Of a stretch of DNA of 51,312 nt, positions 2,801-51,312 are shown in pieces. The notes below the pieces were generated by a model that made no database searches, had not been told where the DNA came from, and saw only the letters and a program-made list of their open reading frames with translations. Made by a program: the position numbers and the translations under genes. Position 1 is the first letter of the stretch; the number at the start of each line of letters is the position of its first letter. Source of the DNA: Acetobacteraceae bacterium (GTDB lineage Bacteria > Pseudomonadota > Alphaproteobacteria > Acetobacterales > Acetobacteraceae); contig JAIYDD010000002.1 in the NCBI GenBank assembly GCA_027487675.1, positions 1-51,312 on the forward strand. The letters are read 5' to 3'.

Positions 2801-5800
2801 TCATGCCACCGCGATGATGTCGGCCGCCGTCAGCGACGGCCGCGTGGCAAGGATCGCGATCTGCGTCGCGGAGCCGGAACCCGTGCCGTCCAGGTCCCAC
2901 GACAATGCGCCGGTCGCCGTCGCGTAGACGAACTGCGCGCCGGTGCCGCTCGCCGCGTTGAGCGAGAGAAGGGGCGCGCCGCCTGCCGCCAGCCCGCCGC
3001 CGAAGCCCGCCGCGGAGACGGCCATCAGGTCCTCGCCAGCGGCGAAATCGCCGAGGCTGTCGCGGCCTTCGGTGCGCGCGCCGAACAGGAAGACGTCCGC
3101 GCCGGCGCCGCCGAGCAGGCTGTCATTGCCGGCCCCGCCCGTCAGCGTGTCGCCGCCGGTCCCGCCGGAGAGCGAATCGGCGCCGCCGCCGCCCGAAAGC
3201 ATGTCGGCTCCGCCCGCACCGTGCAGCGTGTTCGCGCCGCCATTGCCGAGGATGCTGTTGTCCTCCTCGCCGCCGGTGCCGCGCAGGCTGCTGCTGCCGG
3301 CAAGCACCAGTATCTCGACGCCGGGCGACAGCGTGTGGTTCACCGAGGCCTCGACGACGTCGAAGCCCTCGCCCGGCAGCTCCACCACCACGTCGCCCGA
3401 CTGCGCGACCAGGTAGCGGTCGTCGCCGAGGCCGCCCAGCAGGCGATCATTGCCGCTGCCGCCATCGAGCGTGTCTTTGCCCGCGCCGCCGTGCAGCGTG
3501 TTCGCGCCGGAGTTGCCGACCAGCCGGTTGTCGTCGGCATTGCCGGTGCCGGCGAGCGCGGCGGAGCCGGTCAGGAGCAGCGCCTCCACCGCTTCGCCGA
3601 GCGTGAAGCTGACGGAGGACTGGACCGTGTCGGCGCCCTCGCCGGCCAGTTCGACGACGATATCCGCGGCGTGGTCCACCACGAGGACGTCGTTGCCCGC
3701 CCCGCCGACCAGCGTGTCGACGCCGGCGGCGCCGCCCAGCGTGTTGTGCCCCGCATTGCCTACCAGCAGGTTGGCAAGCGCGTTGCCGGTGCCGGAGAGG
3801 TTCGCCGAACCCGCCAGCACCAGCGTCTCGACCTGAGCCGCCAGCGTGTGGCTGACGCTGGCGGTCACCGTATCGGCGCCCTCGCCGGCGAGTTCCGACA
3901 CGATGTCGCCCGTCTGCTCCACGAGGTATAGGTCGTCCCCCGCGCCGCCGGCCATCGAGTCGTTGCCGTCACCGCCCTCCAGCCGGTCGTTGCCGTCGCC
4001 GCCGAGCAGCGTGTCGTTGCCGCCGAGGCCGAGCAGGCGGTCGTTGCCGCCGAAGGCTTCCAGGCGATCCGCGCCGCTGCCGCCGCTCACGGTGTCGTCC
4101 GCGTCGGAGGGCAGGCCGGCCAGCAGATCGGCGGTGGCGACGTCGCCATCGGCGAAGCGCACGACCTCGACCTCGGCCAGCCGGTCGGCGCCATCCGCGC
4201 CGGTCAGCAGCAGCAGGCCGCCCGAAAGGCCGACCGCGTAGCTGGCGCGCAGGCCGGACAGCACTGCGACGTCCACTCCCGCGCTACCTTCCAGCAGGTC
4301 ATTGCCGGCGCCGCCCAGCAGCAGGTCGTCGCCCTCGCCGCCGCGCAGCGTGTCGGCGCCGCCAGCCCCGTCCAGCGTATCCGCCCCGTCTAGCACGGCG
4401 AGCAGGTTCGCGCCGCCATTGCCCGTCAGCCGGTTGGCCTCCGCATTGCCGGTGCCGCCGATGGAGGCCGTGCCGGTCAGCAGAAGCGCCTCCAGGAAGG
4501 CGCCCAGTGTCGTCGTCGCGGCGCTGCGCACCGTGTCGAAGCCGCCATCCGCCGTCTCGACGACGAGGTCGGAGGCGTCGACGAGGTAGGTGTCGTTCCC
4601 CGCGCCGCCGGTCAGCGTGTCCGCGCCCTCGGCGCCGTCGAGCGTGTTCGCGCCTGCATTGCCGACCAGCAGGTTGGCGCGGAAGCCGCCGGTCAGGGCG
4701 AAGTTCCCGCTGCCGGCCAGTTCCACCCCCTCCACCCATTCCCAGATCAGGGTGTGGCTCGTGGCGACGCGGATCGTGTCGAAGCCTTCGTTCTCGGTCT
4801 CGATGACGACGTCCTCGGCATGATCGAGGATATAGAGATCGTTGCCGAGGCCGCCGGCCAGCTCGTCCTTGTCCGTGCCGCCATCCAGCGTGTCGGCGCC
4901 GGCTGCGCCCTGAAGCTTGTCCTCGCCACTGCCGCCACGCAGCAGATCGCTGCCGTCGCCGCCGTCGAGAAGGTCCTTGCCGTCCAGCCCCTCGGCCGTG
5001 TCGTCCCCGGCGAGTGCCGCGATCTGGTCGTCGGCGGCGGAGCCGACGAGCCAGTCGGCGAAGGCGGAGGGCAGCTTCGAGGCGATCTCGAACGTGGTGC
5101 GGTCGCCATCGGCGAAGCGGAACACCTCGATGCCCGAAGCGTGGTCGGTGCCGTCGGCGCCGGAGATCGTGAAGCGCCCGGCGGCATGGGTGATGGCGTA
5201 GCCGGCGAAGCTGCCCGAGAAGACGGCGACGTCCGTGCCGGCGCCGCCTTCAAGGCTGTCGGCGCCTGCGCCGCCGGTGAGCGTATCGTCGCCCTCCGCG
5301 CCATCGAGCCGGTTCGCCCCGGCATTGCCCCGGATCGCGTTGGCAAGCGCGTTGCCGGTGCCGGACAGGCCCGCCGTGCCGGCCAGCGCCAGCCGTTCGA
5401 CACGCGCCCCGAGCGTGACGGAGATGGCGGCCTGCACCAGGTCGTTGCCGCCCCCTTCCGCCTCGACCACCAGGTCGCCGGCGGCGTCGACCAGGTAGGT
5501 GTCGTCGCCTGCTCCGCCTTCCAGCGTGTCCGCACCCGCGCCGCCATCGAGGATGTTCGCCGCATCCGTGCCCGCCAGGCGGTTCGCCGCGGCATTGCCC
5601 GTGCCGGCGGTCGCCGCGCCGGCCAGCAGCAGCGTCTCCGCGCCGGCAGCGAGCGTGTAGGACACGGTGGCGATGACCGTGTCCTCACCCGCGCCGAGCC
5701 CTTCCGTCACCAGGTCGCCGGCATGGTCCACCAGGTGGAGATCGTCGCCCGCGCCGCCGACGAGGCTGTCGGCGCCGGTGCCGCCATCCAGCGTGTCCGC

Positions 5801-7879
5801 CCCGTCTCCGCCCTCCAGCGTGTCGGACTCGGTGCCGCCGGCCAGGCTGTCGTCGCCCGCATCGCCGCCCAGCCGGTCCGCGCCGCCGAGCCCCAAGATG
5901 CTGTCCGCGCCGCCGAGCCCGCGCAGCGCATCCGCCGCCGCGGTGCCGGTGATCAGGTCGTCGCTGTCGAGCGAGAGCGCGGCGGCAAGCTCGGCGGCGC
6001 CCAGATCGCCATCGGCGAAGCGGAAGACCTCGATGTCGGTCGCGACGAAGCTGCCCTCCGCGCCCGCCAGGGTGAAGACGCCATCCGCCACGCTGCCCAG
6101 GTAGTCGGCGCGCGCGCCGGCGAAGCGGGCGACATCGCCCGCGCCGTCGCCACCCTCCAGGATGTTGTCGCCCGCGCCGCCATCCAGCGTGTCGTCGCCG
6201 GCGCCGCCGCGCAGCGTGTCGTTCCCGCCGAGCCCGACGAGCAGGTTTGCGCCCGCATTGCCCACCAGCAGATTGGCCGAGGCGTTGCCGGTGCCGGCCA
6301 GGTCCGCAGCGCCGGCCAACAGCAGCGCCTCGACCTCGGGCGCGAGCGTCGTGGAGGCTGCGGCCTCCAGGGTATCCGCACCGCCGCCGACCAGTTCGAC
6401 GACCAGATCCGCCGCGTCGCCGGGGCGGTAGATGTCGCCGCCCGCGCCGCCGCGCAGCGTGTCCTCGCCCGCGCCGCCATCCAGCGTGTCCTGGCCGTCC
6501 TCGCCCTCCAGCAGGTCATCGCCGTCGCGCCCGAGCAGCAGGTCTGCGCCCGCATCGCCGGCCAGGCTGTTGGAACCGGCATCGCCCGCGATGCTGTCCG
6601 CGGCGCCGGTGCCGCGCGCATGTTCGATGCCCGTCAGCAGCACCAGGCCGCCCTGGCCGAGCAGCGTGCCCTGGGCAAGGTCCAGCGTGCCGCCGATGCC
6701 GACCATGTCGACAAGGTCCTCGCCCTCGCCGCCATCGAGGCTGTCGCCCGCGTCGTAGCCGATCAGCGTGTCCGCGCCGGCGCCGCCGGACAGCATGTCC
6801 AGGCCGGTCTCGCCGTAGAGGGAATCGTTGCCGCCCCCGCCCAGCAGCGTGTCGTTGCCGCCGAGCCCGAGGATCGTGTTGTCGGCGTCGCTCCCCTGGA
6901 TGAGGTTCGAGAGGCCGTTGCCCCAGCCGACCCGCGCGCCGCCGATCAGGATCAGGTCCTCGATCGCGTCGGACAGGAGATGGTCGGCGCCGGCGATGAC
7001 GGTGTCGTGGCCGTCATGCTCGCCCGGCGGGATCCAGGCGCTGCCCTCGTCGCCGCCCGCCCAGTAGCCGCCGGTGTACTCCAGCGCGCGGTCGCCGATG
7101 TCATCGACCAGGTACAGGTCGTCGCCGCGCATGCCGTACATCGTGTCGCGGCCCGCCCCGCCTTCCAACGTGTCGTCGCCCGCACGGCCTTCGAGGTAAT
7201 CGTCGCCCGCGAGGCCGCGCAGGTGATTGGCGGCGGCGCTCCCGACCAGGCGGTTGCTGGCGGCGTTGCCGGTGCCGTCGGCGGCGTCGCCTGCCAGGAA
7301 CAGCGTGTTGATGCCGGCCTGCAGCGTCCAGGAGACGGAGGCGAAGACGACCTCGCCTATGGAGGGCGCCGTCTCCACGATGACGTCGCCGGCATCGTCC
7401 ACGTGGTAGATGTCGAAGCCCGCGCCGCCGTCCAGCGTGTCCGCGCCCGCGCCGCCATCCAGCGTGTCGTTGCCGCTATGGCCCCAGAGGAAGTTGGCAT
7501 CGGCGTTGCCGGTCAGCTGGTCGTTGAACCCGCTGCCCCAGACATTCTCGACGCCTGTCGCGGCTGGCCCGGCGAGGTTCAGCGTCACGCCGGCGGTGGC
7601 GCTGTCCAGGAATGCGGTGTCGATGCCGGCGCCGCCATCCAGGCGCAGCGCGGCGGCGGCGTTCATCATCCGGTCGTTGCCGTCGCCGCCGAGCAGCGTA
7701 TCCGCGCCGCCCCCACCATCCAGCGTGTCGTCCCCGGCATCGCCTTCGAGCAGGTCGGCGCCGGCGCCGCCGTCCAGGCTGTCCGCGCCCGCAAGCCCGC
7801 GGATCCAATCGGCGTCCGCCGTGCCGGTGTCCACGTCGTCGAGATCGGTGAGGAGGCGCGGCGCCAGCGGCAGAGACAT
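2801..7879 (-). CDS. giant RTX (hemolysin-type calcium-binding repeat) secreted protein
   Basis: A 1692-residue acidic repeat protein. The start chosen is MSLPLAPR, whose ATG has AGGAG 8 nt upstream; an in-frame ATG 54 nt earlier lacks this. The body is almost wholly GGxGxDxLx calcium-binding nonapeptides organised in about ten larger modules of 80-90 residues. Each module runs LLVGNxGANxLxG, then GGAGDDTYLVD, then VVExxGxDTVxAxxSxTL, then VExLxLxGxAxxxGTGNA. Three copies of another module (IEVFRFADGD type) interrupt them. The C-terminus (SLGDFAAGEDLMAV, TGALSWDLDGTG, SLTAADIIAVA) resembles type I secretion tails, and there is no N-terminal signal peptide. Such proteins leave through an ABC/HlyD/TolC channel and fold on binding extracellular calcium, acting as adhesins, S-layer or matrix proteins. 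No enzymatic domain and no adjacent type I exporter is seen. A long antisense open frame is a GC artefact. Confidence 0.93.
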   Translation of the reverse strand: MSLPLAPRLLTDLDDVDTGTADADWIRGLAGADSLDGGAGADLLEGDAGDDTLDGGGGADTLLGGDGNDRMMNAAAALRLDGGAGIDTAFLDSATAGVTLNLAGPAATGVENVWGSGFNDQLTGNADANFLWGHSGNDTLDGGAGADTLDGGAGFDIYHVDDAGDVIVETAPSIGEVVFASVSWTLQAGINTLFLAGDAADGTGNAASNRLVGSAAANHLRGLAGDDYLEGRAGDDTLEGGAGRDTMYGMRGDDLYLVDDIGDRALEYTGGYWAGGDEGSAWIPPGEHDGHDTVIAGADHLLSDAIEDLILIGGARVGWGNGLSNLIQGSDADNTILGLGGNDTLLGGGGNDSLYGETGLDMLSGGAGADTLIGYDAGDSLDGGEGEDLVDMVGIGGTLDLAQGTLLGQGGLVLLTGIEHARGTGAADSIAGDAGSNSLAGDAGADLLLGRDGDDLLEGEDGQDTLDGGAGEDTLRGGAGGDIYRPGDAADLVVELVGGGADTLEAAASTTLAPEVEALLLAGAADLAGTGNASANLLVGNAGANLLVGLGGNDTLRGGAGDDTLDGGAGDNILEGGDGAGDVARFAGARADYLGSVADGVFTLAGAEGSFVATDIEVFRFADGDLGAAELAAALSLDSDDLITGTAAADALRGLGGADSILGLGGADRLGGDAGDDSLAGGTESDTLEGGDGADTLDGGTGADSLVGGAGDDLHLVDHAGDLVTEGLGAGEDTVIATVSYTLAAGAETLLLAGAATAGTGNAAANRLAGTDAANILDGGAGADTLEGGAGDDTYLVDAAGDLVVEAEGGGNDLVQAAISVTLGARVERLALAGTAGLSGTGNALANAIRGNAGANRLDGAEGDDTLTGGAGADSLEGGAGTDVAVFSGSFAGYAITHAAGRFTISGADGTDHASGIEVFRFADGDRTTFEIASKLPSAFADWLVGSAADDQIAALAGDDTAEGLDGKDLLDGGDGSDLLRGGSGEDKLQGAAGADTLDGGTDKDELAGGLGNDLYILDHAEDVVIETENEGFDTIRVATSHTLIWEWVEGVELAGSGNFALTGGFRANLLVGNAGANTLDGAEGADTLTGGAGNDTYLVDASDLVVETADGGFDTVRSAATTTLGAFLEALLLTGTASIGGTGNAEANRLTGNGGANLLAVLDGADTLDGAGGADTLRGGEGDDLLLGGAGNDLLEGSAGVDVAVLSGLRASYAVGLSGGLLLLTGADGADRLAEVEVVRFADGDVATADLLAGLPSDADDTVSGGSGADRLEAFGGNDRLLGLGGNDTLLGGDGNDRLEGGDGNDSMAGGAGDDLYLVEQTGDIVSELAGEGADTVTASVSHTLAAQVETLVLAGSANLSGTGNALANLLVGNAGHNTLGGAAGVDTLVGGAGNDVLVVDHAADIVVELAGEGADTVQSSVSFTLGEAVEALLLTGSAALAGTGNADDNRLVGNSGANTLHGGAGKDTLDGGSGNDRLLGGLGDDRYLVAQSGDVVVELPGEGFDVVEASVNHTLSPGVEILVLAGSSSLRGTGGEEDNSILGNGGANTLHGAGGADMLSGGGGADSLSGGTGGDTLTGGAGNDSLLGGAGADVFLFGARTEGRDSLGDFAAGEDLMAVSAAGFGGGLAAGGAPLLSLNAASGTGAQFVYATATGALSWDLDGTGSGSATQIAILATRPSLTAADIIAVA

Positions 7880-8105
7880 CAGCAATACTCCTGGGTCCGC
7901 GCCGCGACCAAACGAGCCGCACGTCGCCCGCATGCAACTTGGGCCGGCCGAGGATTTAGGGCAGATTAACTGACTCGAAGCTGAACGTTGGATGAATGGC
8001 AGATGAACGCAAGTAGCATCAAGGTCAGTCGAGGCATTGGCGGCGCTCGACCAGCGTGAGATGCTCCGCGACCAACGGAGGCTGGTTGTCGCCGCTTTGC
8101 GACCG

Positions 8106-50496: not shown

Positions 50497-51159
50497 ATGC
50501 CCACACCGCCCGCCCCCAGCCCCGGTCTTGCCGCCCTGTCGGTCGCCGACCTGCTGCGCGCCGAGATCACCGCCGGGCGCCTCCTGCCCGGGGAGGCGCT
50601 GCGCCAGGACGAGGTCGCCGGCCGCTTCGGCGTGAGCCGCATCCCGGTGCGGGAGGCGCTGCGCGCGCTGCAGGCGGAAGGGCTGGTGGACTACGCGCCC
50701 AACCGCGGCGCCGCCGTGGCGCGCATCTCCACCGAGGAGATGCTGGAGATGCTGGAGGTGCGAATCGCGCTCGAATGCCACGCGCTGCGTCTGGCCGTGC
50801 CGCGCATGGCCGATGCCGATGCCGAGGCGGCGGCGCGGATCCTTGCCGAATACGAGGCCGCGCCCGGCCCGGATGCCTGGGCCGACATGAACTGGCGCTT
50901 CCACTGGGCGCTCTACGCGCCCTGCGATTGCCGCCGGCTGCTGAAGGCGATCGAGGAGAATTACGGCCGCTTCAGCGTCTTCGCGCGCCGGCACGTCTCC
51001 GCCGTGGCGGGCAAGGAACGCCCGCAGCGGGAACACCACCGCCTGCTGGAACTGGCCCGGGACGGCCAGGCGGAGCCGGCGGCGACGCTGCTGGCCGCGC
51101 ATATCCGCGACACGCAGCGATCGCTGCGCGCCGCGGCGCGGGCGGAGGCGGCGCGATGA
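50497..51159 (+). CDS. GntR-family (FCD) transcriptional regulator
   Basis: A 220-residue regulator. Winged helix at about 15-80 (LLPGEALRQDEVAGRFGVSR, IPVREALRALQAEGLVDYAP, NRGAAVARIS), then the FCD effector domain (EEMLEMLEVRIALECHALRL, WADMNWRFHWALYAPCDCRR, FARRHVSAVAGKERPQREHH) whose Asp/His residues usually bind metal and ligand. It diverges from the VOC operon and probably represses it. The 102-bp gap has a direct repeat GGATACGC (50445 and 50487) as a possible operator part. Its stop lies in an ATGA that is the first unit of the 29-bp tandem array. Confidence 0.92.
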   Translation: MPTPPAPSPGLAALSVADLLRAEITAGRLLPGEALRQDEVAGRFGVSRIPVREALRALQAEGLVDYAPNRGAAVARISTEEMLEMLEVRIALECHALRLAVPRMADADAEAAARILAEYEAAPGPDAWADMNWRFHWALYAPCDCRRLLKAIEENYGRFSVFARRHVSAVAGKERPQREHHRLLELARDGQAEPAATLLAAHIRDTQRSLRAAARAEAAR

Positions 51160-51312
51160 GCCCGTCGCGGGTGGAGCCCGCGCGATGACCCCGGTACGGG
51201 CGGAGCCCGCGCGATGACCCCGGTGCGGGCGGAGCCCGCGCGATGACCCCGGTGCGGGCGGAGCCCGCGCGATGACCCCGGTGCGGGCGGAGCCCGCGCG
51301 ATGACCCCGGTA
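51151..51312. repeat. 29-bp tandem array with hairpin and overlapping ATGA in each unit
   Basis: Five full units (51151, 51180, 51209, 51238, 51267) and a partial sixth (51296 to the edge). Units 3-5 are identical; unit 2 differs by one base and unit 1 by several. Each has GCGCGATGA, then a GCGGGC-GGA-GCCCGC hairpin (imperfect in units 1 and 2). On the plus strand each ATG opens a 10-codon frame (MSPSRVEPAR, then MTPVRAEPAR) whose TGA overlaps the next unit's ATG. The array begins inside the last codons of the GntR gene. Confidence 0.9.

Follow-up and report, generated by a model that had tools for sequence, protein, structure and literature searches.

The closest described counterparts of the repeats reported here are the mycobacterial MIRU repeats, which have a similar layout but another size and origin. 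According to the available parts of the sources, a MIRU repeat holds a short frame coupled to the next gene by a 4-nt overlap (PMC12548453), its unit is 40-100 bp long (PMC2734929), and its copy number varies between isolates at 12 of 41 loci (PMC12548453, PMC2734929). Another related system is termination-reinitiation at ATGA or TGATG overlaps. As described in the accessible text, coupling in reporter assays was almost lost when stop and start lay about 20 nt apart, and no more than the final 15 nt of the upstream gene was needed to sustain it (PMC10666635); the dependence on a Shine-Dalgarno (SD) sequence varies by gene pair (PMC6728339). Short ORFs, including engineered bicistronic designs, are also presented in the available part of PMC12548453 as delivering the ribosome to a downstream gene.

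The arrays described below resemble MIRU in that every unit holds a short frame whose stop and start overlap those of the adjoining frames. They differ in that MIRU form one dispersed sequence family, whereas the units here are locus-specific and appear to be copied from the local junction, and in unit length, 26 or 29 bp (the periods searched for) against the 40-100 bp given in the available MIRU text. With the termination-reinitiation pairs treated in the accessible parts of PMC6728339 and PMC10666635 they share a stop/start overlap at each step and, in many units, an SD-like site, but those pairs have one step, and here at least five steps through 10-codon frames follow one another. Like the ribosome-delivering short ORFs (PMC12548453, available part), they place a short frame without evident protein role before a gene, with the difference that these frames are in tandem and lie between two co-directed genes. 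No report of such arrays in Acetobacteraceae was among the papers listed by searches of open-licence literature, and the accessible part of PMC3711429 contains no description of them.

Results

Tandem array downstream of the GntR gene

The analysed stretch (the window; 51,312 nt) is the whole of contig C218 from an Acetobacteraceae draft genome of 288 contigs and 5.18 Mb. Near its right-hand end, a gene encoding a GntR/FCD-family transcription regulator of 220 aa (50497-51159, plus strand; Pfam FCD 9e-21, GntR 1.9e-17) terminates at a TGA (51157-51159) located within an ATGA (51156-51159). Five 10-codon frames on the same strand follow from ATGs at 51156, 51185, 51214, 51243 and 51272, at 29-bp spacing, and the TGA of each shares a 4-nt overlap with the following ATG. 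The first (51156-51188) reads MSPSRVEPAR and belongs to the unit diverging most, and the four others (51185-51217, in the unit with GGTA; 51214-51246; 51243-51275; 51272-51304) all read MTPVRAEPAR. A sixth ATG (51301-51312, plus strand) is truncated by the contig edge. As 29 is 2 mod 3 and the units contain no in-frame stop, each copy forms a complete 10-codon frame. These junctions fall within the -4 or -1 nt overlap that characterises termination-reinitiation coupled pairs.

TRF reported the array at 51134-51311 (period 29, 6.1 copies, 93% matches, score 300). ORF reading and TRF thus confirmed the preliminary description of ATGA-linked 10-codon frames every 29 bp, at least five times up to the window edge, and the stop-start array is real. 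In 20 first-order Markov windows read on both strands, 256 one-link, 22 two-link and 2 three-link chains were obtained, and no five-link chain. Elsewhere in the window, a gene on the minus strand (2801-7933) encodes a 1710-aa protein with 26 RTX calcium-binding nonapeptide stretches (Pfam HemolysinCabind), which probably accounts for the 27-bp repeats at 3128-7469.

Right-hand gene and origin of the repeat unit

Bases 1-93 of contig C234, from the same draft, are identical to window positions 51220-51312. On C234 no further units follow this overlap, and the last ATG of the array opens a distinct gene, encoding a FAD-dependent oxidoreductase of 458 aa (C234:82-1458; Pfam DAO 4.7e-28). The question raised beforehand, whether the last ATG starts a real gene, is therefore answered positively through the 93-bp overlap: the truncated ATG at 51301 is the oxidoreductase start, unless further units intervene. 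Six other contig-end pairs of the draft overlap by exactly 119 bases, against 93 for C218/C234; sequence identity in the overlap and gene content are thus what supports the join, and further units may be missing between the two contigs. Other contig-end overlaps measured 93 bases (C261/C166) and 86 bases (C61/C183). A 28-bp GC-rich array was also observed at the ends of C225 (L141) and C240 (L155), which overlap by 87 bases.

Within the window, the last 22 nt of the GntR gene before the first ATG (51134-51155, plus strand) resemble the 3' part of the unit, and 16 nt of the consensus unit match the start of the oxidoreductase gene, mismatches being allowed in both cases; together these flank matches exceed the 29 nt of the unit itself. 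Duplication of the local junction is the simplest account of a unit matching both flanks. Moreover, within its own genome the 29-bp unit was present, with up to 3 mismatches, solely on C218 and C234. At the sequence level, these matches show a local origin of the array, as a tandem amplification of a GntR/oxidoreductase junction with a 4-nt overlap, in support of the initial claim that an ATGA gene junction had been amplified.

Eighty related loci, each with an oxidoreductase relative, were fetched and checked. In 28 of them the fetched stretch contained a GntR match somewhere (E 1e-6 or better), and in one (L067, a Burkholderiales MAG) the GntR gene overlapped the oxidoreductase start by 8 nt, indicating that the two are a natural neighbour pair. 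TRF detected no array at the oxidoreductase start in any of the 80 loci, and the window array is accordingly not conserved. None of 14 other genomes of the genus had an oxidoreductase match at E 1e-100.

Related arrays in the genome and the family

A second array was found in the same genome, with 26-bp units following an RpiR/SIS regulator gene on C261 and continuing on C166, where its last ATG opens the gene for a DctQ transporter subunit. Its units have drifted (MNRQRRTEA, MNRQRRTEP, MNSQGRTEP, MNRQGRTEQ, MTRRRRTGA) with the relay of overlapping stops and starts kept. A tandem scan of the genome (periods 11-60, 1.19 Mb; C61 and C172 included only through an earlier pattern match) returned, among arrays with at least three starts, four relay arrays (GntR/oxidoreductase, RpiR/DctQ, ABC permease/ATPase and CoA-transferase alpha/beta), as well as L172 and L215. 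L215 has a 40-bp period and short frames. L172 (C257, 13628-13707) is an intergenic 26-bp array with three ATGA whose start, as far as read, does not lie at a gene stop. More tandem arrays of 23-35 bp were observed in the genome at L178 (C263, 13216-13355), L203 (C2, 2505-2813), L137 (C221, 11283-11409) and L224 (C23, 12580-12696).

Acetobacteraceae genomes were further searched with a sequence-free pattern of four ATGA at a fixed period; the family was assigned from hits in two genomes whose coordinates coincide with those in records of Plastoroseomonas hellenica and an Acetobacteraceae MAG. Matches were obtained in 11 of 397 genomes for period 26 and in 3 of 279 for period 29, and the control patterns matched 11 of 279 (period 28) and 4 of 279 (period 25). 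True 28-bp arrays occurred in three of the 11 period-28 genomes (G296, G021 and G028 C232), the others having sub-periods of 7 or 14 or non-tandem matches. The reversed-pattern control gave no matches among those listed in the period-26 scan; for periods 29, 28 and 25, none were listed in two scans and the third gave 14 in G027 and 2 in G029.

In total, 19 distinct arrays were retained, 16 with period 26 (from 397 genomes) and three with period 29 (from 279 genomes). Fourteen of them had Pfam-matched genes on both sides, the upstream gene ending and the downstream gene starting on the relay. Besides the four pairs of the window's own genome, the bridged pairs were AI-2E transporter/UPF0102, GtrA/PMT_2, SPOR protein/thymidylate kinase, CoA ligase beta/alpha, MscS/esterase, response regulator/HAMP sensor kinase, GST/DAO, MreD/PBP (L250, with a MreD match of 21.6 bits, under the Pfam cut-off of 24 bits), DHBP synthase-GTP cyclohydrolase/DMRL synthase, and PS decarboxylase/CDP-alcohol transferase. 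Two arrays (L245, L272) had a known gene on one side only, and the three remaining ones had none on either side and bridged no recognisable gene pair (L270, L251 and G029 C31/C63, the genes around the last appearing convergent on visual inspection). In the 16 arrays formed by the 14 and by L245 and L272, the relay was open in every unit counted, with GTGA or TGATG at the first, last or every step in L244, L274, L252, C61 and C172. As read from the annotated flanks, these arrays show that the layout recurs at unrelated gene pairs in Acetobacteraceae.

Repeat period and gene bridging

A duplication at an overlap junction spares both genes whatever its length, and only a length of 2 mod 3 keeps the relay. 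Since any tandem duplication across an ATGA makes a relay if its length is 2 mod 3 and it holds no in-frame stop, the relay alone is no evidence of design; roughly one junction duplication in three would produce it unaided. Periods of 2 mod 3 (26/29) were compared with periods of 1 mod 3 (25/28) in matched sets of 279 genomes. Two genes were bridged by 11 of 13 arrays with period 26 or 29 and by none of the seven with period 25 or 28 (one-sided Fisher test, 4.6e-4), the latter being a small control set that was re-examined under a wider rule. The 11 include L250, with its sub-cut-off MreD match, and the C61 and C172 pairs, which were read through GTGA by eye; without C61 and C172 the counts were 9/13 and 0/7 (P about 0.004), and with all arrays they were 14/19 and 0/7 (Fisher 1.2e-3). 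Relay-keeping periods are thus in excess among the 25-29 bp arrays that bridge two genes, a comparison from which the proposed relay gains support.

Among the controls, the last ATG of L278, L299 and L300 opened a frame with a Pfam match, and no known gene ended at these arrays, and at L298 a Fer4/CCG gene begins a few nt behind the array. The L285 array (G021, 1487-1600) starts where a GHMP kinase gene stops in GTGA; its 28-bp unit, with GTGA and ATGA 14 nt apart, forms a double 14+14 relay, which disqualifies it as a clean control. The Pfam annotation of the control flanks omitted the upstream frames of L297, L300 and L301, which end at least 69 nt before the array.

Arrays of 14 bp, also 2 mod 3, had known genes on both sides in none of six cases and on one side at most, with some flanks left unscanned, namely frames of at most 40 aa. 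No in-frame stop was found among 88 between-unit substitutions, few being expected (2.2; P = 0.10), which makes this a weak test. In phage and virus contigs, counted on both strands with overlapping readings taken separately, frames of at least 80 aa on both sides accompanied one of the 125 tandem ATGA arrays found at periods 23, 26 and 29 and none of the at least 100 arrays listed for periods 22, 25 and 28 (at least 80 loci for period 22), so placement between genes is no general property of ATGA repeats. In a phylum sample of 146 genomes, period-26 arrays were present in four, the window's own included, and none of the three others was placed at a gene junction; the reversed-pattern control matched 3 times in G464 and once in G500. 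Another ATGA-rich repeat, in G173 (L279, 1305-1585, reverse strand), consists of 41 ATGA in a 7-bp repeat, ATGAGCT.

Shine-Dalgarno-like sites and hairpin

In 10 of the 16 arrays, against 4.56 expected by chance (P = 0.004), the part of the unit that best matches the anti-SD lies just ahead of the junction. In the window, the end of the GntR gene (51134-51155) carries GGAGG 7 nt ahead of the first ATG, and the 29-bp unit an SD-like GGAG 8 nt before the start. The anti-SD duplex was strongest at the GntR end (-9.5 kcal/mol) and weaker in the later units (-5.8 to -5.9 kcal/mol).

The GCGGGC/GCCCGC inverted repeat initially ascribed to every unit is complete in the units at 51214, 51243 and 51272, and altered in those at 51156 (GCGGGT) and 51185 (ACGGGC). 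As a functional part, the hairpin was not upheld: the window array folds no better than shuffled sequences (z = 0.59), and for tandem repeats of the 16 consensus units, compared with repeats of shuffled units, z ranged from -2.1 to 1.3. REP or other palindromic repeats were likewise rejected, as neither the window array nor the 16 consensus units form a stable palindrome beyond base composition.

Discussion

The arrays are, with moderate confidence, the outcome of amplification of translationally coupled junctions, which would persist, favoured or at least tolerated, since any copy is able to hand a terminating ribosome to the next. A ribosome finishing GntR would terminate, re-initiate in one unit after another and arrive at the oxidoreductase start, with some ribosomes lost at each step and some entering anew at the SD-like sites, and selection would remove amplifications that break the relay. 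Judged by the reporter results, in which a spacing of some 20 nt already removed most coupling, a 145-nt insert without relay should uncouple the two genes, and as the last 15 upstream nt suffice, 10-codon frames should be long enough for hand-on. We infer that ribosomes do walk the relay and that relay-breaking amplifications are selected against; less firmly, hand-on may be partial at each step, with copy number setting the ratio of downstream to upstream output. Tuning of expression by copy number, as initially suggested, is a plausible possibility, and the preliminary interpretation as a whole is partly supported.

Under neutrality, slippage would have amplified a GC-rich junction, the relay would be an idle by-product, and ribosomes would initiate the oxidoreductase de novo from the SD-like site nearest to it. 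Several observations are compatible with this: the genome has other short GC-rich tandem arrays that do not lie at coupled junctions; chance alone would give a relay in roughly one of three junction duplications; unit 1 of the window has drifted; units with an SD-like site of their own make de novo initiation possible; and the 80 related loci have no array. The bias towards relay-keeping periods where two genes are bridged (11/13 vs 0/7) and the placement of the SD-like sites before the junction nevertheless argue against it, and neutrality is considered rather unlikely. Transcription attenuation, termination or mRNA stabilisation by an array of hairpins is a much weaker candidate; three of the five full units have the whole inverted repeat, but the array folds no better than shuffles and the consensus units gave z = -2.1 to 1.3, which makes such a role very improbable.

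A mobile element inserting at overlapping stop/start sites, as proposed for mycobacterial MIRU, would share the layout of a short frame coupled at -4 nt to the next gene (PMC12548453, available part), and three of 120 unit pairs scored 11-12, above the limit of 10 set by 99.5% of shuffled pairs. On average, the similarity between units from different loci nevertheless barely exceeds that of shuffled units (mean local score 6.1, shuffled 5.3, sd 1.4); the units resemble their own flanking genes, and the 29-bp unit is confined to C218 and C234 in its genome, so that such an element is highly unlikely. An assembly artefact would be suggested by the contig ending inside the array, for which reason the copy number is not trustworthy. 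The units, however, differ from each other, the array ends in a distinct gene on C234, and similar arrays lie inside long contigs of other genomes (e.g. on G324 C1 and on G266 C6, in both beyond position 2 Mb); an artefact therefore appears extremely unlikely.

The arrays illustrate that a tandem repeat may expand between two genes of the same direction with neither gene cut. If ribosomes do pass five or more successive 10-codon frames by coupled re-initiation, the arrays would be natural test pieces for the efficiency and repeatability of termination-reinitiation, which the reporter studies cited, in their accessible parts, measured at single junctions (PMC6728339, PMC10666635). It is tentatively proposed that the arrays represent a class of relay minisatellites in Acetobacteraceae, in which slippage-driven copy number would act as a heritable, reversible translational dial for operon neighbours; as part of the same tentative proposal, a change in copy number by slippage would break neither gene and might set the ratio between them. 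If so, these arrays would offer ready-made variable elements for the control of gene ratios.
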